Shown: one piece after another, positions 9,039 to 34,213 of the stretch
Layout: each line of letters starts with the position of its first letter
Numbering within the stretch: position 1 is the first letter of the stretch
NCBI GenBank assembly: GCA_947631205.1
Contig: CANRKL010000009.1
Span: 1 to 35,158, forward strand
DNA length: 35,158 nucleotides
Source: an uncultured Bacilli bacterium
GTDB lineage: Bacteria > Bacillota_I > Bacilli_A > RF39 > UBA660
Direction of reading: 5' to 3'
Position numbers and translations under genes: made by a program
Notes under the pieces: generated by a model
Databases searched by the model: none
Seen by the model: the letters and a program-made list of their open reading frames with translations, nothing else
What the model was told of the DNA's origin: nothing

Positions 9039-10409
9039 TTAATTTACTCCTTCTAGTACAAATGGATTACTTTGATTTCCATAATCACTTGCCGAATTAG
9101 CTTTTATTTTTATATTGCTCTTTAAATAAGCAACAGGACGAACGCCCCATCCAGAGTAAGCATAGGAGCCGCCATTCACACTCCCGCTAGAAGACACATA
9201 GAACACACGGGAAGCACCCGACGAATCAGGGACAGGTGTTATGGTCCATTGATAATTACTACTATCATATAACCAATCATTCCCTGTACAATCTGGACTA
9301 CTTTCATCCCATTTAGACATTGTTTTTGCTAAGCAACTAACCCGCACGTTTCCTCCTACTGCATATCCATAGTCAGATGGGTACATTAGTCCTATAAATC
9401 CATCCCATGTGGTTGTTCGCTCTACTGGGTCATTACAATTATTTCCTCCACTACTGGCACATAACTCTTTTCCATTATGAGTACTTCGTTCTGCAGTATA
9501 TAATGCCTTTGCATTAAATTTTTCATCACTACTATATATATCACTACTAATTGCTTCACCTATTGTCCCCGTATTCCATCTTACTTTGACTAATTTATCT
9601 TTAACACTGGCGGTTAATCCTGTACTACTAAAATCACATGTTCTTTTACCATCATTTCTAGTATTGTAACATTGTCCACTTGTTTTGTTCCAATACAAAC
9701 TATTACCAATCTCACTATCTTTTGTATATATATCTTCTGGATTTAATAATTTCATTAAATCAGCCTTGCTCCATTCATTTACTCCATATCCTGAGTTTAC
9801 TCCACTTGCTGATGAGTCCCAACTATATGACCCTATACTACTACTTCTGATTATTTTCACTAAACTTTGTCCTATGATTTCTGTTTTATCGTCATTTATA
9901 ACTGTCATATTATTCATTACTCCGATTATTCGCCATAATATTGGCTTTTCAGCTGAATCTCTATCTCCTATATCTATATAATTATAAGGACTTGCTCCGA
10001 TATATCTTAAATTATTTTCTTCTGTTTCATCATACGTCAAATTTGTTGTATCTTTATCGGATAATCTTCCAAAATAATCATTAGCTAAATTAGGTGCAAA
10101 ATATAAATTACATTTTGTTTTATTCTTTGTCATATTTCTTACTATTGGTGCCCAATTTTGATAATTCCACGCTACACTTGCACCATTATTGCATTCAGCA
10201 TGCTCAAATCCCAATCCTTGTGTATTCCCTTTTTGGGGCATCTCAGTTAGTTGTTGGTCTCCATTATAAAATGCTAAGTAAACATTTCCTTCTTTTTTAC
10301 TATATTTTTTATAAGTATTAATAAATTGAAATATTATCAATATTAATGTAAAAGATAAAATGATTATTATTGCTTTTAAAAATATATCACTACTTACTAT
10401 TTTTTTCAT
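9039..10409 (-). CDS. Paralogous surface protein without a G tract, membrane-anchored
   Basis: 456 residues. Instead of the G-tract leader it has an uncleaved-type anchor (residues ~10-30, KAIIIILSFTLILIIF). From residue ~42 it matches the family body: AEC..GASV.W...KTKC.LYF, NYIDIGDRDS, ILWRIIG, TTWDGFIGLMYPSDYGYAVGG, GNDWL, ITPVP, VRPVAYLKS. It starts 10 bp after the stop of the phase-variable gene at 10419, so the two probably share a transcript. This copy is intact. Its ITPVP-to-VRP block differs strongly from the other copies. Many conserved Cys suggest an extracellular disulphide-bonded domain; ligand binding is inference. Confidence 0.8.
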   Translation of the reverse strand: MKKIVSSDIFLKAIIIILSFTLILIIFQFINTYKKYSKKEGNVYLAFYNGDQQLTEMPQKGNTQGLGFEHAECNNGASVAWNYQNWAPIVRNMTKNKTKCNLYFAPNLANDYFGRLSDKDTTNLTYDETEENNLRYIGASPYNYIDIGDRDSAEKPILWRIIGVMNNMTVINDDKTEIIGQSLVKIIRSSSIGSYSWDSSASGVNSGYGVNEWSKADLMKLLNPEDIYTKDSEIGNSLYWNKTSGQCYNTRNDGKRTCDFSSTGLTASVKDKLVKVRWNTGTIGEAISSDIYSSDEKFNAKALYTAERSTHNGKELCASSGGNNCNDPVERTTTWDGFIGLMYPSDYGYAVGGNVRVSCLAKTMSKWDESSPDCTGNDWLYDSSNYQWTITPVPDSSGASRVFYVSSSGSVNGGSYAYSGWGVRPVAYLKSNIKIKANSASDYGNQSNPFVLEGVN

Positions 10410-10418
10410 CTTTCCACC

Positions 10419-11881
10419 TCAACTTTCTATTACAAATGGATTACCAGAACTTCCATAATCACTTGCAGAACTTTCTTTAATTTTAATAGAAGACTTTAAA
10501 TAAGCAGTAGGATATACATATCGTTTATTAAAAGCAGATTCATGGTCTATACTTCCATCACTAACAAGGTTAAATACATAAAAAGCATAAATAGAATAAG
10601 GAATAGGTGTTATGAGCCATTGAGATTTTCCAGGATATAACCAATCGTTATCTCTACAATCTGTTCTTTTATAACCCCAGTCATGCATACTTGTTGCTAA
10701 ACAACTATTACGTACGTCTCCTCCTACCGCATACCCATAATCAGAGGGATACATAAGTCCTATATACCCATCCCATGTCGTTGTTCGTTCTACTTTATCA
10801 TTGCAATCATAAGTATCATTACATTTTCCTTTTCCATTATTACTGCTCCGTTCAGCTTGATATGCTGCATTTGGAAACCATCCTGCATTATTATTTGATG
10901 AAAATGTTCCTGTATTCCAACGTATTTTAGCAAGTTTTTCTTTGGCACTTTCACTAAAACCGTTATTTATAAAATCACAAGAGGTTTGAGAATCTCTTGA
11001 ACCATCGTAACACTGTCCACTTGTCTTGCTCCAGTATGTTTCATAATTCAAAGTTGTCATAATATCTGCTTGACTCCATTCATTTATTCCATAACCACTA
11101 TTTATTCCTGTTCGTGATGAATCCCAAGTCCATTCTCCTATATCTTCAGCTCTAATTATTTTTACTAAATTTTCTAAATTAATTAGTTTATTATCATACA
11201 AAACTGATATATCATTCATAACACCGATGATTCGCCATAAAATTGGCTCACCACTACTATGTATTTTTTCACAATTATAGTGATAAACACTATCGCTACT
11301 ACAAGAACTTAACGTTGAAAATTTTCTATAAAAATTTTTATTATTTTCATACATATAACCTCTGTAAACATCACCAGAATATCTATCTCCTATATCGATA
11401 TAATTATTTACTTCTTTTCCAATATATCTTAAATTTTTATCATTAGTATCATCATATGCTAAAGTAGCAGTATCTTTTTCTGCTAATCTTTCAAAATAAT
11501 CATTAGCTACATTTTGAGCAAAATATAATTTACATTTTGTTTTACTTTCTTTTAAATTAGTTATCATCGGTTCCCATTTCTTAAAATTCCAAACAATACT
11601 GGCTCCTTTGTCACATTCAGCACGTTCAAAAGTTAATTCCGTATCATCTTTAGTTGGCATTGTATCTAATATAGTATCTCCCTTATAAAACGTAAAAAAT
11701 ACATCTCCACTACCTTCATACTGCACTGTGCCTTCCATCACTTTGAAACTGACACTCTCTTGGTAGTTAGCATAACTTCTATTTAAATACCCCCCCCCCC
11801 AGCGCACATTACGCCAAGGGCTACCGCGAAAGCCACAAGTTTCTTTTTATTATTTTTTTCTTTATATTTATCTATTCTCAT
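10419..11881 (-). CDS. Phase-variable cysteine-rich surface protein (copy C), out of frame at a G11 tract
   Basis: The true start is ATG 11881 behind GAGG, 27 bp downstream of its -10. The leader MRIDKYKEKNNKKK plus hydrophobic core runs for 81 nt into 11 G. Frame 0 then reads Gly-Gly-Gly-Gly-Ile-stop (TAA). With 9 or 12 G it would continue as YLNRSYANYQESVSFK into the body. A GTG at 11807 opens the downstream frame but has no leader, so I regard it as incidental. The body carries the family motifs plus an extra ~27-residue insert between NYIDIGDR and ILWR (rich in Tyr, Ser and Cys), and a strongly divergent ITPIP-to-YPTAYLKS block. The paralog at 9039 follows after 10 bp, so loss of translation here could also affect that gene. 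Confidence 0.78.
11790..11800 (-). repeat. Homopolymer tract, 11 G on the coding strand
   Basis: Eleven C on the plus strand inside the copy C leader, after codon 27. The flanks are nearly identical to those of the tracts at 11-20 and 1869-1878, but the length differs by one, as expected for an unstable switch. Confidence 0.9.
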
Positions 11882-21907: not shown

Positions 21908-21937
21908 AGAGCTCAAAAATTTGAACTCTTTTTTTTT
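21908..21937 (+). terminator. Rho-independent terminator of rpsD
   Basis: AGAGCTCAAA (21908-21917) and TTTGAACTCT (21920-21929) pair with one mismatch and run into a T-rich end at 21929-21937. It just touches the 3' end of the convergent VirB4-like gene. Confidence 0.85.
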
Positions 21938-23720
21938 ATAATCCACCACCAGAACCAAAGGAATCTAACTCCTCTTGAGTAACAATTACATTTATTCGCA
22001 TTCTTCTATTACCACAAACAAACAAAGCATCACCTTGATTATATGACTTAATACTTTCTTTTTCACTTTCATTTAAATCAATCAATTGAGCTAAATCTTC
22101 AATTCCTTGTTTCTTTAATCCCATAATTAAATAATATGAAGCATTATCAAAAATAGCTTTTCCATGAACTATAACTCCTGGTGCAATAAAGTCAGTAGGT
22201 TGTTGAGTAATAATAATTGTTCCTGTATTATATTTTCGACTACGTCTTTGAATCTGAGCCAAAAACTCTGCCCCTAATTCATTTTTAGTTGATAATAAAA
22301 CATGGGCTTCATCAACATACATAACAGTATTAACACTAGGGTCTAAACATAATCCCCAAGCATACTTTAAGATATTAAAGAATAAAGCATTACGAATATT
22401 TTCATCAGCATTCATTAATTCTCTAATATTAAAGACAATAAAATCACTATCAATATCCAAAGTAGTATGACCAGTAAAATAATAACGAAGTTCTTTAGTT
22501 AAAGGTCTAATTTTTAACTCTAATCTTTCCATAATCTCTCTTTCATGAGTTCTTTCAGTCATAGATAATAATCGACCTTTAATTGTTGCATAAACATCAT
22601 CAAATGTTGGATAATCTTCACTAGTAAACTTTGTATAATCCGAATCATAATCTATTTTATAACGTTTATAAGTATCTTGAACAACTTCTGTAAACATTGT
22701 TAAAACATCATCATCAATATCAGGCGAATAATATTTCATAAATGCTTTTAATTGTTGTAAAGTTCTTGTTAAAACTGTATAACCTAATCCTTGATTAATT
22801 TCTTCTTCATCAGCATCAATGACTATTTCCAAAGGATTAATCATTCCAAATTCTCCACCCTTACCAAGGTCTAAGAAGTTACCACCTAGCATATTAGCCA
22901 TATCTTTTAATTCACCCTCAGGGTCAACACATACTATTTTATATTCGTTACGCAAATGACTTCTTAAAAGTAACTTAGCTGCTGTTGATTTACCAGAACC
23001 AGTAGTTCCTAAAATTATCATATTAGCATTGTTACGATTATGCTCTTTTTTTATTTGATATAAGAATTGGTTAAATAAAATTACTCCTCCAGAAAAATCT
23101 ACACCAAATAATGTACTATTTCCTGGGTCTTTAATTGAATCAAAAATAAATGGATACATTGCTGCAATTGTCACTGATGGAATAGGTGCTCCTACTCTTT
23201 CTTCAATGTCTTGTTTAGGAAATATTGGTAACATTGATTTAATTACTTTTTCTTGTTCAAACATTAAAGATATTCCACGCATCCCTAAAGCGTCTAAAAA
23301 ATTTCTAACTTGCATTTTTTTACTATTCATCTCATCTTTAGTATCTGCTGAAATAAAGATATGCAATTGAAAATCAAATATTCTTGATTGAGTAGCAACT
23401 AACATTGAAATAAATTGCTCTAAAGATTCATAGTCTTGTCTTATTCTTTCTTGAATTGTCTTATCTCTTTCAGATTGATAACGACTCTTTAAATCAGCTA
23501 TTTCTTTATTAATCATTCTTTGTAAAGTTGATAATTCAATTGGAATATGTTTAGCTACAATTTTTATTCCTGATAAATTCGTTAAATTAGCTAAATATCC
23601 TTGAGATATAAACTTAGGAAAACTAACAACTGTTAAAATTGTACAATATTTTCCACTCATCATAAATTCTGTTGGTTTAAATTCTACTCCCTTTGGAGCT
23701 ATCTGTGCTTTTAAATTCAT
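21936..23720 (-). CDS. VirB4-like secretion ATPase, C-terminal part
   Basis: 594 residues, the motor part of a type IV secretion ATPase. Walker A is GTTGSGKST (238-246), the DPEGE motif is at 266-270, Walker B is MYVDEAH (467-473), and TIIITQQPTDF (~501-511) is the typical post-Walker B segment. The first ~200 residues belong to the VirB4 N-terminal domain. It resembles the VirB4 of Gram-positive conjugative elements (TcpF/PrgJ/CD1110-like). Its ATG overlaps the stop of the upstream gene (ATGA, 23717-23720), and together the two products have the ~780-residue length of a single VirB4. Expected on the cytoplasmic face of the membrane channel. Confidence 0.88.
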   Translation of the reverse strand: MNLKAQIAPKGVEFKPTEFMMSGKYCTILTVVSFPKFISQGYLANLTNLSGIKIVAKHIPIELSTLQRMINKEIADLKSRYQSERDKTIQERIRQDYESLEQFISMLVATQSRIFDFQLHIFISADTKDEMNSKKMQVRNFLDALGMRGISLMFEQEKVIKSMLPIFPKQDIEERVGAPIPSVTIAAMYPFIFDSIKDPGNSTLFGVDFSGGVILFNQFLYQIKKEHNRNNANMIILGTTGSGKSTAAKLLLRSHLRNEYKIVCVDPEGELKDMANMLGGNFLDLGKGGEFGMINPLEIVIDADEEEINQGLGYTVLTRTLQQLKAFMKYYSPDIDDDVLTMFTEVVQDTYKRYKIDYDSDYTKFTSEDYPTFDDVYATIKGRLLSMTERTHEREIMERLELKIRPLTKELRYYFTGHTTLDIDSDFIVFNIRELMNADENIRNALFFNILKYAWGLCLDPSVNTVMYVDEAHVLLSTKNELGAEFLAQIQRRSRKYNTGTIIITQQPTDFIAPGVIVHGKAIFDNASYYLIMGLKKQGIEDLAQLIDLNESEKESIKSYNQGDALFVCGNRRMRINVIVTQEELDSFGSGGGL

Positions 23721-24289
23721 TCTGGACTCACCATCCCACTAAATGTTGTACTTACTCCCCCATTAAAGAAGTTATCTAAAATAACTCTTAAATCATTATT
23801 ACTTGTTTGTTGACTATTTAAGCCACAATTAGCTAAATTACTAATTAGTTGATGTAATCTCTTTTGAATAACGTCCATCTTTTTTTCTTTAAAAAGAATG
23901 TAATATTCAGTATCTACTACGTTATATTCGGCACTCATAAACATATTAGCTTTACTTATATCCTGCATTATTAACTTACGAGTACTATTATTTTGAGCAT
24001 TATTAAATAGTATTTGTAATTGTGATAAATAAACTTGAATATCTACAGGACGGTCTGCAACAATCAACCAAAATTCATAAGTAATTGTATTATAAAAATT
24101 TTGTAATTGATAAATAACATTATCTCTTGTAGATGAATCAAGAATAAAAATGTTTCTTGGGGCAACTTTAATACCTGTTACATACTCTCCATTCTCTAAT
24201 TGAATCATACCATTCATAATATTTTTTATTGGAACCCAATCTTCACTCCATTTACTAAGTAACTCTTTTTCATTTTTGCTTTTCGCCAT
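23717..24289 (-). CDS. VirB4-like protein, N-terminal part (split gene)
   Basis: 190 residues without a P-loop. DWVPIKNIMNGMIQLENGEYVTGIKV is the typical opening of Gram-positive VirB4/TcpF proteins, followed by a region covering the start of the VirB4 N-terminal domain. It ends GGVSTTFSGMVSPE, and the next gene starts at the ATGA overlap, so the two halves are translated in coupling. The split looks orderly rather than decayed. It overlaps the PrgI-like gene by 20 bp on its other side. Confidence 0.75.
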   Translation of the reverse strand: MAKSKNEKELLSKWSEDWVPIKNIMNGMIQLENGEYVTGIKVAPRNIFILDSSTRDNVIYQLQNFYNTITYEFWLIVADRPVDIQVYLSQLQILFNNAQNNSTRKLIMQDISKANMFMSAEYNVVDTEYYILFKEKKMDVIQKRLHQLISNLANCGLNSQQTSNNDLRVILDNFFNGGVSTTFSGMVSPE

Positions 24290-24584
24290 CTCTTATACAC
24301 CAGCCTTTCCAATAATATCTTTTTCTTCCTAGTATAAATGTTACTATATTTGTTATTAATTGTAACACATTATGATAATTTGGTACAGGGATAACTAAAA
24401 ATCCCGATATTAAAGCAGGTAATAAAATTAAAAGAGCCACACTAAAAGTCATACCTTGAAATATTAAAAGCATTAATAAAGTTATTCCACAGCCACTACC
24501 AAAAATAATTAAATCTAATAAGGTAAAAAATCCCAAATATAATTTAGATTTTTTAGTATTAGCTGGAATTAAATAATTATTCAT
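24270..24584 (-). CDS. PrgI/VirB3-like membrane protein
   Basis: 104 residues with two close membrane helices (~17-60), preceded by YLIPANTKKSKLYLGFFT and followed by PVPNYHNVLQLITNIVTFILGRKRYYWKG. This is the PrgI family pattern, where the gene normally sits directly before virB4, as here. An inner-membrane component of the type IV secretion channel. Start ATG 24584 behind AAGGGG. Confidence 0.8.
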   Translation of the reverse strand: MNNYLIPANTKKSKLYLGFFTLLDLIIFGSGCGITLLMLLIFQGMTFSVALLILLPALISGFLVIPVPNYHNVLQLITNIVTFILGRKRYYWKGWCIRDGEKQK

Positions 24585-24599: not shown

Positions 24600-26963
24600 C
24601 TATTTTTTATCCTGTTTTCTTTGTCTAAAAGTATCTTCTTTCAATGTAAATTCATTCAATCTATTATTATATAAAGACTTATTAACCTTTTGTCTAGTTA
24701 CAACTGTACCATTTGATAATGTTTCAGTTTCAATATCTGAAGATTTACCAATATAGCTTGATAAAGATTGATTATTATTTCTAAATGTTTCAATTTGTCT
24801 ATCAAGTGACTGAATAGCAGAAGCTTTTTGAGTTTTAATTTCCATTTCAGTAGCTTTTAAGAAATCATCAGCTTTCCTAGAAGCTGCATCAGCACTTAAT
24901 TTATCTTTATGCAATCTTTGGAATTCAGTTGAACGAGTATCTACAGACTTCTCAAAAGAGGCCTGTTCAGATTCAGGAAGGCTTTTTGAAACTGTTGTTT
25001 TAGCATTGTTCACAGCTCTTGTAGATGCCTCTTCAAAAGATATTGATGGTTCTTCATTAATAATACTTTCAAATTGACTTTTATATTCTGAAACAAATTG
25101 TGAATTCATAGCAGAAGCAAAATTATTAAATTCATTATTAGCCATTGTTGCATTAACATGAGCTTGTCTTTGTGATGCCTCGGCATCAACATAAGCTTTT
25201 TCCTTTTTAACTAAATCATCTCTACCAGTAACAAGTTTTTTAAATTCATTAAGTCTTTCACGTTCTTTTTTCTCTTGTTCAGTTAAAGTATAAGCAGCTG
25301 CTCCTAATAAAGCATCTCTAAAATCTCTACCTATATCTTCAACATGAGCAGTAGTAGTCGCTAAACCTGGAATATTTGGTAACCCAGGATGTCTAGCTCT
25401 GGCACTAGCTTTGTAATTTTCTCTATTAGCTCTTGCAGCCTCTGATTTATCAGCAGCTACTAAAATATTTTTTGGAATATCTCCAAAGTTTTTAGAGTCT
25501 TTACCAGCACTATATCCATTTTTTCCACCACTAGCAGCTCCGCCAATAGCCGATGCTCCAACTCCTAATGCAGAAAAAAGCGTTTTTCCAATAAGAAGTC
25601 CATATGCTCCAGCAGCTTTTACATTTTCATCTGCTTTATCAAATATATTTCCATTTCTTGCATTTTCCCTATGGGTATTAAAAGATTCCTTAGCTAATTC
25701 TTTATTAACTTTCCAACTATTAACAAATCTTTTACCACCTGGAATAACATTTCTTGCAAGCGATAAAGCTGCACCTCCCGCCACTGAAGTTGCTGCAAAG
25801 AATCCTCCAGCTTTTAATTTATCTTTAATACCTAATTTAATATTTCCAGAATCAAGGCCTAACATATCACTAATTAATTTAGGAGCTTGCTTAGCAAATG
25901 CTAATAATCCCATTAAAATAATTGCTTTAACAAGTAATCCTTGAACACCATTCATAATCGGTGTATCCCCGCCATTAGAAACAGCCCTTGAAAATGTAAA
26001 TAACTCTGAATTAGCAATTTGACTAAAGAAGTAGACAACCATATACATAATTCCTACCCTAATAAACACTTCAAAATAAACAGTCAAAGTCAGTTTTAAC
26101 CACTTATCAAACGTCCCTTTTTTTCCTGGAACCATCCTCATAATAATTGGAATAGGAGCAATTAATTGACAAAAAGCAAACTTAACTATCCTTATTCCTA
26201 AATCTAAACAAAAACTAGCCATAATATAAAGTGTAATTAACCCACAAATAGTACTAATAATTGGTGTATATGATGGAGTTACATAAGTCCCTTTTCCCTT
26301 TCCATCAGACGCATCACTTATTAATTTTTTAGCTTCTACACACCATGGACTCATTATTGTTATCGAAGTAAAATGTCCATTTTTAATCAAATCAACTTTT
26401 AAATCAAACCAACTATAACTATCTCCTAAAGAAACATTATAATTAGCCGGATTCAAAAAAGGATTTAAAACTGTATAAGCCATATAATTTCCATACTGAC
26501 TTAAAGTAGCAGTTTCTTTTGCCGAACCTGTCCCTAAAATAACTGCCCCAAGAATATTTTCTTTAAAAACTAATCCTTGTAAACGATAAGCATAATCAAA
26601 AATAGTTGGTAAAAGTCCAAGTAAAGCTAGAGAAATAACAATATTTTGAGCCAGTTTACTAATTCCCTTGTCACCCGAAAAAGCTTTATCTGGGTCAATC
26701 AAAGCATTTAATAAAGCATATGCTAAATAAAAGAGCATAACTACTCCAATAATAGCATATATTCTTTTGGCAAAATTACTAAAAAAAGCATCTTGAAATA
26801 TTCTAGCATCAGCTAATTTTACAAATATTTCAAAAACTTGCGAAATAGCCCAATAAACTGCACCATCTAATAATAACAAAAGTTTATGAACCATATCACT
26901 AGCCCACTTATCAATTTCCCAAAAATTATACGAAATGATAATTAATTTTGTAAGCAATCCCAT
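24600..26963 (-). CDS. VirB6/TrbL-like large membrane protein with soluble tail
   Basis: 787 residues. The N-terminal ~370 residues hold several membrane helices (for example IYAIIGVVMLFYLAYALLNAL and LITLYIMASFCLDLGIRIV), with the polytopic layout of VirB6/CD1107-type proteins. Around 375-480 is a Gly/Ala-rich stretch (GGFFAATSVAGGAALS). From ~540 to the end it is a long charged coiled-coil-like soluble region rich in Glu, Lys, Ala and Asn. It probably forms part of the membrane pore, with a cytoplasmic or external coiled arm. It lies 16 bp upstream of the PrgI-like gene in the same operon. Confidence 0.75.
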   Translation of the reverse strand: MGLLTKLIIISYNFWEIDKWASDMVHKLLLLLDGAVYWAISQVFEIFVKLADARIFQDAFFSNFAKRIYAIIGVVMLFYLAYALLNALIDPDKAFSGDKGISKLAQNIVISLALLGLLPTIFDYAYRLQGLVFKENILGAVILGTGSAKETATLSQYGNYMAYTVLNPFLNPANYNVSLGDSYSWFDLKVDLIKNGHFTSITIMSPWCVEAKKLISDASDGKGKGTYVTPSYTPIISTICGLITLYIMASFCLDLGIRIVKFAFCQLIAPIPIIMRMVPGKKGTFDKWLKLTLTVYFEVFIRVGIMYMVVYFFSQIANSELFTFSRAVSNGGDTPIMNGVQGLLVKAIILMGLLAFAKQAPKLISDMLGLDSGNIKLGIKDKLKAGGFFAATSVAGGAALSLARNVIPGGKRFVNSWKVNKELAKESFNTHRENARNGNIFDKADENVKAAGAYGLLIGKTLFSALGVGASAIGGAASGGKNGYSAGKDSKNFGDIPKNILVAADKSEAARANRENYKASARARHPGLPNIPGLATTTAHVEDIGRDFRDALLGAAAYTLTEQEKKERERLNEFKKLVTGRDDLVKKEKAYVDAEASQRQAHVNATMANNEFNNFASAMNSQFVSEYKSQFESIINEEPSISFEEASTRAVNNAKTTVSKSLPESEQASFEKSVDTRSTEFQRLHKDKLSADAASRKADDFLKATEMEIKTQKASAIQSLDRQIETFRNNNQSLSSYIGKSSDIETETLSNGTVVTRQKVNKSLYNNRLNEFTLKEDTFRQRKQDKK

Positions 26964-27022: not shown

Positions 27023-27991
27023 TTAAGAAATACCACAATTACTTAAATCATAAAGTCCAAAAATTTGAAACAATAATTCTAATAAATAAGGTAACATAAC
27101 TATAACAATTGTAATAATTAATCTTTTTACTGTCTTTTTATTAACTTTTTTTAACTCATCACTATTAACTAATACTTTTATATAAGAAATAATCGTCACG
27201 ACAATCATTATTATTGGAGAAGCAATTTTAATTAAAGAAAAAATACCATCTAATAATACTTTAATCGTTTTTTCACTGCCATCACTATTATAAAAAACTG
27301 TCTCACAAGTTGTCTCTCCCCCATTTATATCAGATATTCCATTAGAATATTTATCTTCTAAAAGACCTCCTAATTCTCCCCCAATTTCTTGGTTATCATT
27401 ATTACTACTACTATTTACTTGAACTTCATTCCATTTATTATATCTTGCAAAATATTTAAAATTATTATTACCAACTCTTATTTGAGGTCCCGAAACCCCA
27501 TTATAACTTGAACTATGAAACCAAATATTTACTCCATTTTCTTTACCAACATATATCCCAACATGATTACAAGGTCCAGTACAATCAGATTTAATATTTA
27601 ATCCTATATCTCCTGGTCTTAATTCTGTTTCACTAATCTCTGTAAAATCTGATGAAAGACTAAAATTCGCTGTAGACCACCCACATATATTTCTAACTCC
27701 TGCTCTGTAATATGCTAAAGAAACATAAGCAGAACAATCAAGTTCTGGTGGCTTAACAGTATCACTACAATTTCTATATCCTCCACCATAAACTATCCCC
27801 TTATTAATCATTTTAGCTGCTTCTATTACTACTTGTACCCTTCCATCATCTAAACCACTTGGCCAATCATTAGCCATTGAAGTAAGCCTTTCATATACAC
27901 TTTTATCAATATTATTACCCACAAAACTATAAGCCCAAGAATTTATAGGAAATATTACTAATATTAAAATTACAAACAATATCTTCTTCAT
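27023..27991 (-). CDS. NlpC/P60 cell-wall hydrolase with C-terminal two-helix pilin-like module
   Basis: About 322 residues from ATG 27991, chosen because it gives a clean signal peptide (MKKILFVILILVIFPINSWA); an ATGA-overlapping start at 28003 is also possible. The NlpC/P60 catalytic set is Cys86 (ELDCSAYVSLAYY), His143 (NHVGIYVG) and a polar His159 (WFHSS), cutting peptide links in peptidoglycan. A Ser/Asn linker (~190-210) leads to a C-terminal module: Cys, helix (IKIASPIIMIVVTIISYI), a basic loop (KKVNKKTVKR), helix (LIITIVIVMLPYLLELLF) and a terminal NCGIS. That module matches the small VirB2-like proteins of this cluster. VirB1-type role: opening the wall for the secretion apparatus. 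Confidence 0.82.
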   Translation of the reverse strand: MKKILFVILILVIFPINSWAYSFVGNNIDKSVYERLTSMANDWPSGLDDGRVQVVIEAAKMINKGIVYGGGYRNCSDTVKPPELDCSAYVSLAYYRAGVRNICGWSTANFSLSSDFTEISETELRPGDIGLNIKSDCTGPCNHVGIYVGKENGVNIWFHSSSYNGVSGPQIRVGNNNFKYFARYNKWNEVQVNSSSNNDNQEIGGELGGLLEDKYSNGISDINGGETTCETVFYNSDGSEKTIKVLLDGIFSLIKIASPIIMIVVTIISYIKVLVNSDELKKVNKKTVKRLIITIVIVMLPYLLELLFQIFGLYDLSNCGIS

Positions 27992-27999
27992 AGTCCACC

Positions 28000-29250
28000 T
28001 CATGTAATTCCACAACTATTAAAATCAAACAATCCAAATATTTCAAATAACCAATTTAATAAATATGGAAGCAAAACAACAATCAAACCAATTACAAGTC
28101 TTTTAAGTCCCCTATTTATTAATTTTTTTTGACTAGACGCTAAATCACTTTCAGCTAATGTTTTAATAATATCTATAATCGTTAAAACAATAACTAAAAC
28201 TGGAGAAGCAATTTGCATTATATCAAATGTTCCTTGAACAAAATTTCCTAACCCATTTAAATCTCCAGTACTATCTACTAAAAGTAACCTACAAGATAAA
28301 GATTTTTTATTAAATGACATAAAACTATAATTTGTATAAATATCAATTAAAGAACCACCTTCAGGGTCTTTCTCATCATCATCTTCACTACTTGGATTAT
28401 CTGTAATTGTCGCGTCACTTCCTGCTATATCAATAATAGCTATCGCAAGTTCCTTAGCTAATTCATCTTTTTTAGTAATATATTCTGAAACATCTTGAGC
28501 ATTATCCATAAAAAATGTTTCTAAATAATATACAGGAATATTTCTTGACCTTGTTAAATTACTTACCGCACCTAATGTATATCCTAAATAATCTTTATCA
28601 TTCACAACCGATGAACCACTAGTTCCTAAAACTTTATCTACAGCCCCCGTTAACTTTTCACCATTTATTTTATAAATTCCTGTTGGATTATCAACCATAA
28701 CAACACTTTGACTTAACCCATTTTCCCCATCAACTGCATTAAAATGTAATTCAACCGCAAATAAATATTTATCAGTCCCAATACTATCTATATGATTATA
28801 TAATGCTGGACTATAGCTTCCTATTGTTCCTTGAATAAAACCACAACAAGCTGAATCTATTGGATTACAATTACTAGCTTGCCAACCCTCATAATCTGTA
28901 AAAAACTTATCTCCCACTATTTCATTAGATATTTCATAAGCAACACCAGCACTCTTTAAATATCCTGCTATCTTATTTATCATTATTCTTGCTTCTTGAT
29001 TTTCATAATAAGTAACACCATTTACAGTAGCACTAGCATGATTACAGCCTCTTCCACCTAATCCATGAGCCGCTTCTAATAAAATTCTTTTATCATCACC
29101 AGTAGCATTTGATTTATTAGCTTCTAAAAGAACTCTAGGACTACTTTCATAAACCATATTTTCACGACAAAAAGAAGAATAACTACAAATTAAACTTAAA
29201 ATAATAATTACTAATAATTTTAAGTAACTTCTTTTTATCAAATTTGTCAC
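28000..29250 (-). CDS. Amidase_3 N-acetylmuramoyl-L-alanine amidase with C-terminal two-helix pilin-like module
   Basis: 416 residues. Signal or anchor helix at ~10-27. The Amidase_3 zinc set is visible: H62 (EAAHGLGG), E84 (YENQEA) and H169 (VELHFNA), plus a later catalytic Glu in YYLETFFMDN. The enzyme would cleave the amide between MurNAc and L-Ala. After an acidic linker (DDDEKDPEGG) comes Cys, a helix (IMQIASPVLVIVLTIIDII), a basic loop (SSQKKLINRGLKR), a helix (LVIGLIVVLLPYLLNWLF) and NSCGIT, the same module as the next gene. The start (GTG 29250) is uncertain; a TTG at 29241 is an alternative. It overlaps the NlpC region and shares the operon. Confidence 0.8.
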   Translation of the reverse strand: MTNLIKRSYLKLLVIIILSLICSYSSFCRENMVYESSPRVLLEANKSNATGDDKRILLEAAHGLGGRGCNHASATVNGVTYYENQEARIMINKIAGYLKSAGVAYEISNEIVGDKFFTDYEGWQASNCNPIDSACCGFIQGTIGSYSPALYNHIDSIGTDKYLFAVELHFNAVDGENGLSQSVVMVDNPTGIYKINGEKLTGAVDKVLGTSGSSVVNDKDYLGYTLGAVSNLTRSRNIPVYYLETFFMDNAQDVSEYITKKDELAKELAIAIIDIAGSDATITDNPSSEDDDEKDPEGGSLIDIYTNYSFMSFNKKSLSCRLLLVDSTGDLNGLGNFVQGTFDIMQIASPVLVIVLTIIDIIKTLAESDLASSQKKLINRGLKRLVIGLIVVLLPYLLNWLFEIFGLFDFNSCGIT

Positions 29251-29258
29251 ACTCCAAA

Positions 29259-29648
29259 CTATTTACACTCAGTTACATTTAAAACACAAGTAAAACATTC
29301 TTCATAACTATTTTCATATCCATTAACCCAATCATCAACTAAACTAAAAGCAAATTCAATAATTATTGGAACATAAAAAATAATTATTCCTGATAATAAA
29401 CGCATTATAATAGATTTTATAGCTTTCGGTAATTCTCCATCTTTACCAGCAGTTACAACTTTAAATAAATCAATTGCTCCCATTCCAATTATTACCAAAG
29501 GAACCAATATTCTTATAATAAAAACAATATAACCAACTATTTGTAAAGTACTTTTAAAAACAGTACAGTAAGGATTAGCCGCCAAAACTACTGGCGAATA
29601 GAAAGTTACTAAAATTATTAATAATATCATATATAATTTCTTTTTCAT
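29259..29648 (-). CDS. VirB2/TrbC-like small pilin-type protein (copy 4)
   Basis: About 129 residues from ATG 29648 (AGGTG SD), with an apparent signal peptide (MKKKLYMILLIILVTFYSPVVLA). The mature part is Cys (PYC), helix 1 (YIVFIIRILVPLVIIGMGAIDL), a charged loop (GKDGELPKAIK), helix 2 (LLSGIIIFYVPIIIEFAFSLV), then CFTC and a last Cys. Two-helix hairpins of this kind fit VirB2/TrbC pilins. It is the first gene of the secretion operon, behind an extended -10. Confidence 0.75.
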   Translation of the reverse strand: MKKKLYMILLIILVTFYSPVVLAANPYCTVFKSTLQIVGYIVFIIRILVPLVIIGMGAIDLFKVVTAGKDGELPKAIKSIIMRLLSGIIIFYVPIIIEFAFSLVDDWVNGYENSYEECFTCVLNVTECK

Positions 29649-29670
29649 TTTAAACACCTAACTCATCAAA

Positions 29671-30045: not shown

Positions 30046-30786
30046 TTAATTTTTTATTATATACTTACCCTTATTATCAAACTTTGTTGTTCCTGTCCAA
30101 ACTATTAAGTTCATATCTACTAATCTATTTAATAATTTTATAGAAGTTGTTTTGCCTCTATTAATTATTTTTGAAGTTTCTTCGGATGTTATTTCGCCCT
30201 TATCAAAAATCGTAGTTAACACTTGTCTTTCTAAATAATTTAAATTATTCCATTTATTTTGAATAGATTTATCTTTCAAAATACTTTCTTCTCTTCTTTT
30301 ACTACGCATCACTATATTATTATCAAGTACAAGTAAAACAGAATTCTTGTCAGGTTCAGAATATTTTGGGTCTTTCAAGAAAAATCTTTGCATTTCGCTA
30401 TAAATTCTTTTTACACCTTCATTTAATTCTCTTACTATACCCATTTCATTTAAAACTCTTGCAATTTGAGGATTTCTGGAATATCTTTTGCTTTTCATTG
30501 TTTCTAATGTAACGAATCCACCCAATTTTCCTGGACTAGATATTTCTAATCTATCATCAAAAAGTTTAACTATAATTTGTTCACCACTATTACTGTAATC
30601 TCTATGGGTTACAGCATTTACAAGCCCTTCATACCACGCAAATTCTGGATATTCAGGTACAGTTTCAAATACACCTTCTAAATTTAAATGTGTGAATTCT
30701 CTTAATTGTGTTTTAATGAAATTTCTAGCTTGTTCTATTGTTTTATATAAGCAAGAATCAAACGTTCTATCTTTAACAATATTCAT
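30046..30786 (-). CDS. AlbA_2-type ATP-binding regulator, C-terminal half (frameshifted)
   Basis: 246 residues from ATG 30786, which has an AGGAG SD. The N-terminal part (FAWYEGLVNAVTHRDYS and the later SSPGKLGG) is the HATPase-like domain typical of the second half of AlbA_2 'putative DNA-binding/ATP-dependent' proteins, and the C-terminal ~70 residues look like a winged helix (LEREQ-type start, then ITSEETSKIINRGKTTSIKLLNRLVDMNLI). In relatives this is one chain with the 30795 product. Here the frame is broken just before it: KFQVGAD reads straight into MNIVKDRTFD in the -1 frame. The SD may allow independent translation. Confidence 0.75.
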   Translation of the reverse strand: MNIVKDRTFDSCLYKTIEQARNFIKTQLREFTHLNLEGVFETVPEYPEFAWYEGLVNAVTHRDYSNSGEQIIVKLFDDRLEISSPGKLGGFVTLETMKSKRYSRNPQIARVLNEMGIVRELNEGVKRIYSEMQRFFLKDPKYSEPDKNSVLLVLDNNIVMRSKRREESILKDKSIQNKWNNLNYLERQVLTTIFDKGEITSEETSKIINRGKTTSIKLLNRLVDMNLIVWTGTTKFDNKGKYIIKN

Positions 30787-30794
30787 ATCTGCTC

Positions 30795-31508
30795 CTACTT
30801 GAAATTTTCTTTACCCTCAAATTTCAAAACTCGAACTCTAGCACTCGGTAAATATACTGATGGATTCTTTCCAAACAATAACATTCCAGCTTTTGTTAAA
30901 TGCCATTCGTCCTGTTTTTCTCTTAAAAATCCTCTTGCTTTTAAAACATCTTCACTAGACAATTTTGTTCCTAATTTTTTCTTATAAAATTCAACCATAT
31001 CCATATCTATATCATTAATAGTTGAGTCATATAAAATTTCAGTCTCAAAATCACGTTCTTTTCTATCATATTCTAAGCTACGAATCTGCTCTGATGTTAA
31101 TTTAATTGATGAATCACCTTGTCTTAAAAAAACCTCATCTTTATTATTTCTCACAATATAATTCATAGCAGGCTCGATATGAAAAAGTAATATATTATCA
31201 TCAATGTTTTTAAAATTTTTAATATTAATTAACTCACATTCATAAATAGGTGTTGGATTCAAATATCCTGATACAACTTTTTGGCAATCATTTAATTTTT
31301 TTAAGCCGTACTGATTAAAGCCTTCTATTAATCCATCATCAGTTATTCCAACTACAAGAATTCCACCATTAGCATTAGCAAAAGAGGCTATTTCATTTGC
31401 TAAATCCTGTAAAGAAACTTTTGCACGTTTTCTCTCTAAATATAAATTTTCTTGAGCTTGTGTTAAGAAATTAATAGTTAAACTCGAATCAATTCTTGAT
31501 ATATTCAT
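30795..31508 (-). CDS. AlbA_2-type DNA-binding domain protein, N-terminal half (frameshifted)
   Basis: About 237 residues from ATG 31508 (AGAGGTG SD); a start at 31541 lacks one. The AlbA_2 domain is clear: LERKRAKVSLQDLANEIASFANANGG, ILVVGITDDGLIEGF, FLRQGDSS, then LTKAGMLLFGKNP and LPSARVRVLKFEGKE, which in the family leads into the HATPase-like half. Here frame 0 ends GAA AAT TTC AAG TAG at 30795. The -1 frame from AAATTTC (30807-30801) continues the protein. It could be a programmed shift, a real mutation or a sequence error. Related proteins act as regulators, some in phage or mobile-element defence; the role here is open. Confidence 0.75.
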   Translation of the reverse strand: MNISRIDSSLTINFLTQAQENLYLERKRAKVSLQDLANEIASFANANGGILVVGITDDGLIEGFNQYGLKKLNDCQKVVSGYLNPTPIYECELINIKNFKNIDDNILLFHIEPAMNYIVRNNKDEVFLRQGDSSIKLTSEQIRSLEYDRKERDFETEILYDSTINDIDMDMVEFYKKKLGTKLSSEDVLKARGFLREKQDEWHLTKAGMLLFGKNPSVYLPSARVRVLKFEGKENFK

Positions 31509-31789
31509 AATATTTTCACCTCTACCTTTATATTTTATCATAATCTTGTTTGTTTTTTGTTAACTTATATATTTTTATATAACTAATATTAATTATAATT
31601 AATATAATTATTATAATAAAATTTGACAATTATTTTCATCTAAACTTTAAACATGCTTTCTTTCTAAAGCAAATATTTTTTACTTTATCACAAAAAGATT
31701 TATCCAAATCCAATGTATAATCTCAAAAATTATCCTTATTAAAGAAAAAAATCTTAATATTTTTTTTATTTATCAATTAAAAAAGTATT

Positions 31790-32341
31790 TTAGCAGTTAA
31801 AAACATCTAAAACACATTTTTGACAAATATTAAATTCACTTTCAACAGAATCAAATCCATCTACTAGTGAAAAAACAAAACTAACTATTGATGGCACAAA
31901 GAAAATAGCCACACCAGCAATTAAACGGAAAGCAAAAGATTTAACTGACTTAACTATCTCTCCATCTTTTCCTCCAGTAACTGCTTTAAATAAATCCAAA
32001 ACCCCAAAAATAATCAAAACAATTGGAATAAGTATTTTAATAATAAAAACAATATATCCTATAAATTTTAATGGAGGCTTTAATTTAGTACACGGACTAT
32101 TTTTAGTACTACCACCTTCGACATTAGTAGTAACAGCACCTGTATAAGTTACACCATTTCTTATAATCTTATTTCCTGATATAGTTCCAAAATTAGAACC
32201 AGAAGAGACCGTCTCACATTTGCTTCCAATACAAAATTCATAATCCCCATTATCTTTTTTTGTATAAGTATTATCTGCTTTAACATTTTTTATTCCAAAT
32301 AAACACACTATAACTAACAGTATCATAAAATACTTTTTCAT
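31790..32341 (-). CDS. VirB2/TrbC-like small pilin-type protein (copy 3)
   Basis: 183 residues. Signal peptide MKKYFMILLVIVCLFGIKNVKA, then ~60 residues of Gly/Ser/Thr/Lys-rich polar sequence with Cys, then PCTKLKPPLKF, helix 1 (IGYIVFIIKILIPIVLIIFGVLDL), loop GGKDGEIVKSVK, helix 2 (LIAGVAIFFVPSIVSFVFSLV), and CQKC plus a final C. The two-helix body aligns with the proteins at 29259, 32341 and 33803. Start overlaps the stop of the previous gene (TAATG, 32341), so the pair is coupled. The long polar N-terminal part is unusual for a pilin. Confidence 0.72.
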   Translation of the reverse strand: MKKYFMILLVIVCLFGIKNVKADNTYTKKDNGDYEFCIGSKCETVSSGSNFGTISGNKIIRNGVTYTGAVTTNVEGGSTKNSPCTKLKPPLKFIGYIVFIIKILIPIVLIIFGVLDLFKAVTGGKDGEIVKSVKSFAFRLIAGVAIFFVPSIVSFVFSLVDGFDSVESEFNICQKCVLDVFNC

Positions 32342-33099
32342 TAATCCATACCTCCAATTTTACAATTCTTACTTTTACAACTCTTAACATCACAATCAGC
32401 ATTTAAAATACATTCTGTACAACAACACCAAGTATTTTTATAATTACTCCATTCATTTACTAAATCTAAAACCATTTGAATAACTCCTGGTAAAAAGAAA
32501 ATACAAACTCCTGCAACTATCCGAACACAAATGGATTTAACTGCTCCAGATATAGCATCTTGTTTAGAAGAAGTCAAAGCTTTAAATAAATCTACTCCAC
32601 CTAAAACAATAATAATTAAAGGCACCAAAATCTTTAAAAATCCCACTACTAAACCCACCATTTTTAAAGGTTTCCTAATATTTTCACTAGCGCATATTTT
32701 TTTTAAACTAGTGTCTTTTATAGGCCCCCAATCAGTATCACTATAATCAACAGAATTAACTAAACTAACTGGATTAGTATAACTACCACTCTTCTTATTA
32801 TTAAAAGAAATAGTTTTTTTATCTTCACTAATTCTAAGATATAAAGTATCAAGGCATTCTATCTTATCTCCCACTTTAAAATCATTATAAGTTATTAAAG
32901 ATGTTATAAATGATGTTTTGGCTGTTGAACCATCTTTTCTAACTTTAGATTTTTTTAGATTTTTATTGCCCTCTATAACATCAAATGTATATATATATTC
33001 ACCAACATCATAAGAGCAAGAGATATGCATTTTAGCTTTAACTACAAAAGGTGTGAAAATAATTAATAAAAACATTAAAAATAAATATCTCAATTTCAT
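32341..33099 (-). CDS. VirB2/TrbC-like pilin-type protein with extended N-terminal domain (copy 2)
   Basis: 252 residues, the longest copy. Signal peptide MKLRYLFLMFLLIIFTPFVVKA, then ~120 residues with beta-like character (YDVGEYIYTFDVIEGNKN) and Cys. The C-terminal module is KKICASENIRKPLKMVG, helix 1 (FLKILVPLIIIVLGGVDL), loop SSKQDAISGAVK, helix 2 (IVAGVCIFFLPGVIQMVLDLV), then CCCTEC and several more Cys. The extra N-terminal domain could be an extracellular receptor-like head. ATG 33099 follows GGAG. Operon with the 31790 gene. Confidence 0.72.
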   Translation of the reverse strand: MKLRYLFLMFLLIIFTPFVVKAKMHISCSYDVGEYIYTFDVIEGNKNLKKSKVRKDGSTAKTSFITSLITYNDFKVGDKIECLDTLYLRISEDKKTISFNNKKSGSYTNPVSLVNSVDYSDTDWGPIKDTSLKKICASENIRKPLKMVGLVVGFLKILVPLIIIVLGGVDLFKALTSSKQDAISGAVKSICVRIVAGVCIFFLPGVIQMVLDLVNEWSNYKNTWCCCTECILNADCDVKSCKSKNCKIGGMD

Positions 33100-33802: not shown

Positions 33803-34213
33803 TTAATCAACAGAATATTCAGTCTCGCCATTCCAAGCATTTGTAGCATAGATACTACAATCATTTGACCCGCCACCATTTGGATTAGTTATACAAGCTT
33901 GACATACTTTAAAATCATCTTTGGCTCCTGATTCTGCAAAATTAGATACTAATCCTAAAATCATGCTAATTAAAGTTGGAATAAAGAATATTGCAATTGC
34001 TGATATAGCTCTTAAAGCTAAAGATTTAACTGCTTTCTTAATTTCATCATCTTTACTAGCAACTACAGCTTTTCCTAAATCCATAATACCAAAAATAATT
34101 AATAAAATAGGAATAACAATTTTAAATATTAGTAACAAATAACCAACAATTTGCCAAATATTGGCAGTACTTATACAAAAATTGATTTCTGCTAAAAGCA
34201 TTAATTTTAACAT
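33803..34213 (-). CDS. VirB2/TrbC-like small pilin-type protein (copy 1)
   Basis: 136 residues, the shortest N-terminus, with no classical signal peptide (MLKLMLLAEINFC). Helix 1 is YLLLIFKIVIPILLIIFGIMDL, the loop ASKDDEIKKAVK, helix 2 is AISAIAIFFIPTLISMILGLV. Cys are at residue ~13 and in CQAC, with one more at SNDC, followed by a short hydrophilic tail (GETEYSVD). Same module as the other three. ATG 34213 follows GAGG. A hairpin AAGGTGC/GCATCTT at its stop (~33,779-33,800) may terminate it. Confidence 0.72.
   Translation of the reverse strand: MLKLMLLAEINFCISTANIWQIVGYLLLIFKIVIPILLIIFGIMDLGKAVVASKDDEIKKAVKSLALRAISAIAIFFIPTLISMILGLVSNFAESGAKDDFKVCQACITNPNGGGSNDCSIYATNAWNGETEYSVD

Follow-up and report, generated by a model that had tools for sequence, protein, structure and literature searches.

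Peptidoglycan hydrolases with a C-terminal pilin-like two-helix module in a chromosomal T4SS gene cluster of uncultured gut Bacilli

The window, that is, the whole stretch of DNA analyzed here, is an entire contig of 35,158 bases from a low-GC assembly of 1.15 Mb (68 contigs, 88% complete). It carries a T4SS gene cluster, which is chromosomal and set amid housekeeping genes; the neighbours include genes that we take to be those of RNase Y, ribosomal S4, and AlaS, and an EngB gene whose product was matched as a GTPase by Pfam. The features of the cluster were as follows.

21936-23720, minus strand: ATPase part of VirB4 (NCBIfam VirB4_plasma, model positions 294-891, E = 6.8e-105).
23717-24289, minus strand: N-terminal part of VirB4, a separate ORF (NCBIfam VirB4_plasma, model positions 95-276, E = 4.9e-15).
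24270-24584, minus strand: PrgI/VirB3-like protein (Pfam PrgI, 0.0039, below cut-off; synteny).
24600-26963, minus strand: polytopic VirB6-like protein encoded just after the NlpC fusion (NCBIfam Mbov_0396 family, 2.1e-6; synteny in 45 loci).
27023-28015, minus strand: NlpC/P60 hydrolase with signal peptide, head, linker, and C-terminal pilin-like module (Pfam NLPC_P60, T4SS_pilin, AF2).
27026-27340, minus strand: aa 226-330 of the NlpC protein, its C-terminal pilin-like module with two helices (homologous by profile to the small pilin-like proteins; AF2 helices).
28000-29250, minus strand: Amidase_3 hydrolase with C-terminal pilin-like module (Pfam Amidase_3, invariant H/E/H/E).
28003-28329, minus strand: aa 308-416 of the amidase, its C-terminal pilin-like module with two helices (T4SS_pilin 0.0044 when searched as a fragment; profile homology).
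29259-29657, minus strand: small pilin-like protein, 132 aa (T4SS_pilin 0.005; AF2 helices).
31790-32341, minus strand: small pilin-like protein with an N-terminal extension, 183 aa (T4SS_CagC 0.005, T4SS_pilin 0.097; module HMM at aa 79-164).
32341-33099, minus strand: pilin-like protein with a larger N-terminal extension and a Cys-rich tail, 252 aa (module HMM at aa 129-217).
33803-34213, minus strand: small pilin-like protein, 136 aa (T4SS_pilin 0.0031).

The VirB4 of the window (21936-24289) is thus encoded by two overlapping ORFs, an N-terminal part of 190 aa and an ATPase part of 594 aa, and this split is retained across the loci of the genus and of other genera of the family. Between the pilin-like genes, at 30046-31541, two adjoining ORFs look as if a single SLFN_AlbA_2 plus HATPase_c_4 protein (Pfam) had been split between them, a pair not seen in the clusters of relatives. 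Outside the T4SS genes, three related large proteins without a Pfam match (597-1829, 9039-10409, and 10419-11807) share the N-terminal motif FYKGD/FYNGD ... MP ... C.LYF, of which further copies occur in relatives.

The first-pass annotation had proposed that both enzymes end in a Cys, a helix, a basic loop, a second helix, and CGIS or CGIT, and this pattern was borne out in the two ORFs. It had also held that these tails mirror the body of the four small pilin-type proteins, which proved correct for the two helices. The C-terminal ends of the two classes differ: the small proteins have Cys-rich tails of the CxxC type, whereas the enzymes end in GLYD(L/I)SxCGI. An HMM built from 58 enzyme tails alone was run on the 615 ORFs of the fetched loci together with reversed and shuffled decoys. 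It matched the small pilin-like proteins with a median E of 3e-13, and the reverse search, in which a small-protein HMM was run against the enzymes, gave a median E of 2e-20. The best reversed decoy reached 1.5e-6 and the best shuffled decoy 0.009; the remaining ORFs were no better than 0.14, except for the VirB6 proteins, which reached 0.015 at best, and an NlpC fusion that is truncated. Because the 615-ORF set held a few short enzyme-type modules, the comparison was repeated with curated alignments. Aligning 36 enzyme tails with 19 pilin-like modules by hhalign gave Prob 99.1, E 8.1e-19, and a score of 105 over 77 columns, compared with 30.7-34.5 for reversed alignments, 10-18 for column-shuffled alignments, and 12-17 for three membrane families, one of them the two-helix PrgI-like family. 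Both classes of module have in common a Pro in helix 1, D..KA, and R..(I)G..IFFLP. At the level of sequence profiles, these results confirmed homology between the C-terminal ~100 residues of the enzymes and the body that the four small pilin-like proteins form with their two helices. The N-terminus of VirB6 was also considered as an extra copy of the module, as hinted by iterated HMMs; its hhalign scores of 28-32 were below the reversed control and did not support this candidate.

Structure prediction, which the first-pass annotation had suggested as a check, was performed with AF2 on two of the six modules, and both were predicted to be similar helical hairpins with a tight turn. The helices were placed at 242-275 and 277-310 in the NlpC protein (pLDDT 82; model numbering is ORF numbering minus 8) and at 27-67 and 70-103 in the small protein at 29259-29657 (pLDDT 76). 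A crude hydropathy scan located a basic loop in nearly all modules, with a median net charge of +4 in the enzymes and +2 in the pilin-like proteins, which is consistent with a cytoplasmic loop. A Cys before helix 1 and another after helix 2 were both present in 52 of the 58 enzyme-type proteins; the six enzymes without the second Cys comprised three that also lack the first and three that retain a Cys in the first flank. A disulfide between the two module Cys residues is plausible.

Both enzyme tails and three of the four small proteins of the window matched Pfam T4SS_pilin (PF18895) at 13-19.5 bits, under its cut-off of 26.6, and the match to the NlpC protein (0.0011) covered aa 248-308; Pfam gave no direct T4SS_pilin match to the 32341-33099 protein. 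The fusion of a relative from the same family reached 27.5 bits, above the cut-off. T4SS_pilin matched 25 of the 36 enzyme modules at E <= 0.05, the best at 1.8e-7, and 16 of the 28 small proteins at the same threshold; TrbC/VirB2 models matched a few modules weakly, and GPCR models matched up to 8 of the 36 by composition, which indicates the noise level. Since the T4SS_pilin and TrbC matches lie mostly below cut-off and GPCR models produce such noise, we use the term pilin-like for the module and do not class it among proven pilins. The pilin designation comes from those matches, and two traits of T4SS_pilin-type proteins were present, namely a two-helix hairpin with a short basic loop (from the two folded modules of the six and the hydropathy scan) and genes beside VirB4, VirB6, and a PrgI/VirB3-like protein. 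Searching PDB sequences with the module profiles returned only membrane-composition matches, such as rhodopsin, and Foldseek and VIA-align gave no specific match to the hairpin, a two-helix hairpin being an uninformative query.

The NlpC/P60 head (27023-28015) matched Pfam NLPC_P60 at 29.3 bits against a cut-off of 23 (9e-7, aa 82-176), and its Cys-His-His residues, in the motifs DCS, (N/E)H, and FH(S/C), were conserved in 10 orthologs. A Foldseek search with the model of this protein returned weak matches to NlpC/endolysin-type catalytic domains. The match of the amidase head (28000-29250) to Pfam Amidase_3 was 23.9 bits against a cut-off of 27 (4.7e-5, aa 56-272), with related fusion proteins matching at up to 1.1e-15, and H62, E86, H169, and E244 were invariant across 13 orthologs. 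Both catalytic heads of the window look intact.

The distribution of the module was centred on one family. When the amidase was used as a query on 59 relatives, 34 genomes including its own matched, within the genus only and mostly through the module alone. Of 54 genomes sampled from the same family, 49 matched the module profile, whereas the 341 other genomes of the class yielded 3 weak matches; when the phylum was sampled, 19 genomes matched the module, 17 of them from this family. No homologous fusions were found in plasmid and viral collections. The gene order was kept across loci: small pilin-like genes, one to four enzyme-type fusions, VirB6, the PrgI-like gene, and the N- and C-terminal parts of VirB4. 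Across the family, VirB6 was immediately preceded by a module-bearing gene on the same strand in 44 of 45 loci, the exception being on the opposite strand; as the loci were fetched for containing the module, its frequency is conditional on that choice, while its position is not. With their position just upstream of VirB6, the module genes show a very strong genetic link to the T4SS.

A search for more enzyme-plus-module fusions, also suggested at first pass, found them to be common in the genus, with hydrolase-family matches in about 40 of the 58 enzyme-type proteins. The heads were NlpC/P60 (14), C39-like (12), Amidase_3 (11), a T6SS VgrG3-like C-terminal domain (3; a match at 5e-10), M15 (2), and ELLD (1), and two-domain heads also occur, such as Amidase_3 plus NlpC/P60 in L047:5824-7698. 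Within the genus, no recognised head was present in clusters e6 and e10 and two singletons, and in three loci (L062, L069, and L070; L062 was scanned) the VirB6-adjacent protein is about 165 aa long and carries the module without a recognised head. In other genera, the VirB6-adjacent fusion usually has no recognisable hydrolase domain. These unrecognised heads and the loci with no recognised head indicate that the module is the constant element, with hydrolase heads as one of its uses, so that wall cutting would not be its general role. Other arrangements were also observed. The module precedes an M23 peptidase in L093:694-1797 of another genus, and in L090:17226-17999 an N-terminal module is followed by a domain that is SGNH-like by eye and without a Pfam match. 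In a pilin-like protein of L038:10958-13417 the module is followed by Big_2 and by a region that matches YkuD (L,D-transpeptidase) weakly, and the window's own genome holds an orphan ELLD/NlpC-module fusion (L049:6758-7729) by a gyrase-B-type gene, away from the T4SS cluster.

Near-identical modules occur on different heads. In L047, two fusions of a single genome, one with a C39 head and the other with an amidase-NlpC head, have modules that are 94% identical in protein and 92% in DNA. Six such pairs, including this one and with neighbouring fused genes among them, share 3' blocks of 315-410 bp with 89-97% nucleotide identity and abrupt ends, and five of the six had no alignable head DNA. The heads are related in the L103 and L065 pairs, so gene duplication accounts for part of the pattern. 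Heads in this genus have apparently been exchanged through recombination at the shared module, to judge from these alignments, and this modularity hints that a large family of uncultured gut Bacilli has a general system for display.

Other parts of the machine lie on a separate contig of the same genome. There, a second T4SS locus (L073:1541-7164), adjoining apparent glycan-synthesis genes, encodes VirD4 (T4SS-DNA_transf, 8e-57), a VirB8-like candidate identified by position alone and without a Pfam match, and, beside VirD4, an 865-aa VirB1-like protein with M23 and phage-type lysozyme domains and without the module. VirD4-type proteins were found in most genus genomes searched. The relaxase family PF03432, the one relaxase family searched, was not found in the window's 88% complete genome.

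Wall synthesis in this clade appears incomplete as judged by profile matches. Neither the window's genome nor any of eight close relatives had a Mur_ligase_C match, and in 14 of 37 genus genomes (its own and 13 congeners) Mur_ligase_M matches were weak or missing, with none of a strong MurC-F type; in the window's genome the weak match corresponds to MurT, beside GatD. MurC, MurD, MurE, and MurF matches were missing, and MraY-type, MurG, FtsW, MurT/GatD, and five PBP matches were kept. The absence of MurC-F matches with the later steps kept is an unusual half-pathway (seen also in L142 and L143), and no MurB was seen beside MurG, its place in genome G012. Genomes with the amidase and NlpC pair fall nearly all in the MurC-F-less group, which is a related set, and the link may therefore reflect ancestry only. 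A survey of the order RF39 and neighbouring orders considered that missing steps may force muropeptide scavenging (PMC10868615). We treat the absence of MurC-F as a lead and not as support for any mechanism.

The reading that we prefer, with a probability of roughly 0.58, is that the hydrolases are plugged through the pilin-like module into an assembly near VirB6 and open peptidoglycan at the T4SS. The signal peptide would export the catalytic head, and the two helices would lie in the membrane with the basic loop inside and both ends outside, as in the neighbouring small pilin-like subunits. The module would dock with these subunits, which may form a pilus, and with VirB6, whose gene comes next; the amidase and NlpC/P60 heads would then reach into the wall where the T4SS is built, presumably with the cell's own wall as the main substrate. 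VirB1-like wall-opening activity would in this case be integral to the assembly, as opposed to residing in a separately anchored enzyme. VirB6 of R388 has been proposed as a platform for pilin-subunit assembly (PMC12857230), and a head-bearing subunit encoded beside VirB6 would thus be well placed at the base or tip, near the channel. Since the same genome encodes a module-less VirB1-like enzyme by VirD4, the fusions may be additional to it or serve another role.

One such role would be action on other cells, with the fused proteins serving as anti-wall effectors whose heads the T4SS would carry outward or inject to attack bacteria nearby, much like the tip or spike fusions known from other secretion systems. 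The bond specificity of the heads varies between close relatives, with apparent swaps on near-identical modules as in arms races, a locus may hold up to four fusion genes, a T6SS VgrG3-like domain is found among the heads, and DNA transfer is not the obvious job of a system whose genome has no PF03432 relaxase. However, no immunity-like genes lie between the fusions and VirB6, the adjacency to VirB6 is as rigid as for a structural part, and the hydrolase heads belong to a broader head set that extends to proteins without a wall-related domain; we regard the effector role as unlikely. A pilin-based T4SS whose exchangeable enzyme heads, on tip or base subunits, breach and harvest the walls of neighbours is in our estimate quite improbable; if true, harvesting would fit a clade that lacks MurC-F and keeps lipid-linked precursor and crosslinking enzymes.

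The hydrolases might also have a part in general turnover of the wall or in recycling nutrients, and lie in a T4SS operon for co-expression only. A clade without MurC-F matches that keeps MraY, MurG, MurT/GatD, and PBPs may need wall material from outside, as the survey infers for RF39 and related orders, but turnover would leave both the fusion to a T4SS module and the strict VirB6 adjacency unexplained, and fusions are also present in relatives that retain MurC-F. We therefore give turnover little credence. Finally, the hairpin could be an ordinary two-helix anchor that resembles the small proteins by composition, which would make the enzymes plain VirB1-like hydrolases. Hydrophobic hairpins do give chance matches, as seen with the GPCR models and the reversed control at 34.5, yet the alignment score of 105 is far from this control and from the values of at most 17 for other membrane families, among them the two-helix PrgI-like proteins, and the residue pattern is common to both classes. 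An ordinary anchor was already disfavoured on this evidence and is very unlikely.

How Gram-positive T4SSs pass through a thick wall is poorly understood. With wall-cutting heads mounted directly on a pilin-like module, assembly and the opening of the wall would be coupled, and the proteins described here provide a concrete and testable set. In the open literature searched, we found no description of pilin-hydrolase fusions. The nearest likeness is to the T4SS pilin arrays of Patescibacteria (PF18895/VirB2-like), in which small two-helix proteins are also arrayed beside VirB4, VirB6, and PrgI in chromosomal and mostly relaxase-less systems of a monoderm host (PMC12102498, PMC10633639); here, in contrast, enzyme heads are also mounted on the module, and the system belongs to a family of gut Bacilli. 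VirB2 has been stated to be absent from Gram-positive T4SSs except in Patescibacteria (PMC12857230). Like the VirB1-like hydrolases PrgK, TraG of pIP501, and Orf14 of Tn916, which are secreted, membrane-tethered, and T4SS-encoded (PMC12857230), the window enzymes have a hydrolase domain, apparently intact active-site residues, and a gene in a T4SS cluster, with secretion and tethering predicted here from sequence. They differ from the usual SLT/CHAP/LytM-type in their NlpC/P60 and Amidase_3 heads and C-terminal pilin-like hairpin, and from PrgK, TraG, and Orf14 in having as a rule one enzyme domain each (a few have two) and in coexisting with a separate, ordinary VirB1-like protein.

The closest VirB4 and VirB6 matches were to the Mycoplasma ICE T4SS (NCBIfam Mbov_0395/0396/0397), for which a pilin-like Mbov_0395 family exists. 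The Mycoplasma system is ICE-borne by its NCBIfam names, whereas the present cluster lies amid housekeeping genes in a genome with no PF03432 relaxase found. Some secretion machines have swappable tips (VgrG-type and polymorphic fusions), in which a constant base carries interchangeable functional heads. The present proteins are alike in combining a constant base with exchangeable heads and differ in that the head is N-terminal and the base is a pilin-like hairpin, with delivery being hypothetical. The best reading of these comparisons is a variant in which VirB1-like activity would be an inherent part of the pilin-like subunits of a T4SS that is chromosomal and relaxase-less (PF03432) and belongs to monoderm Bacilli.
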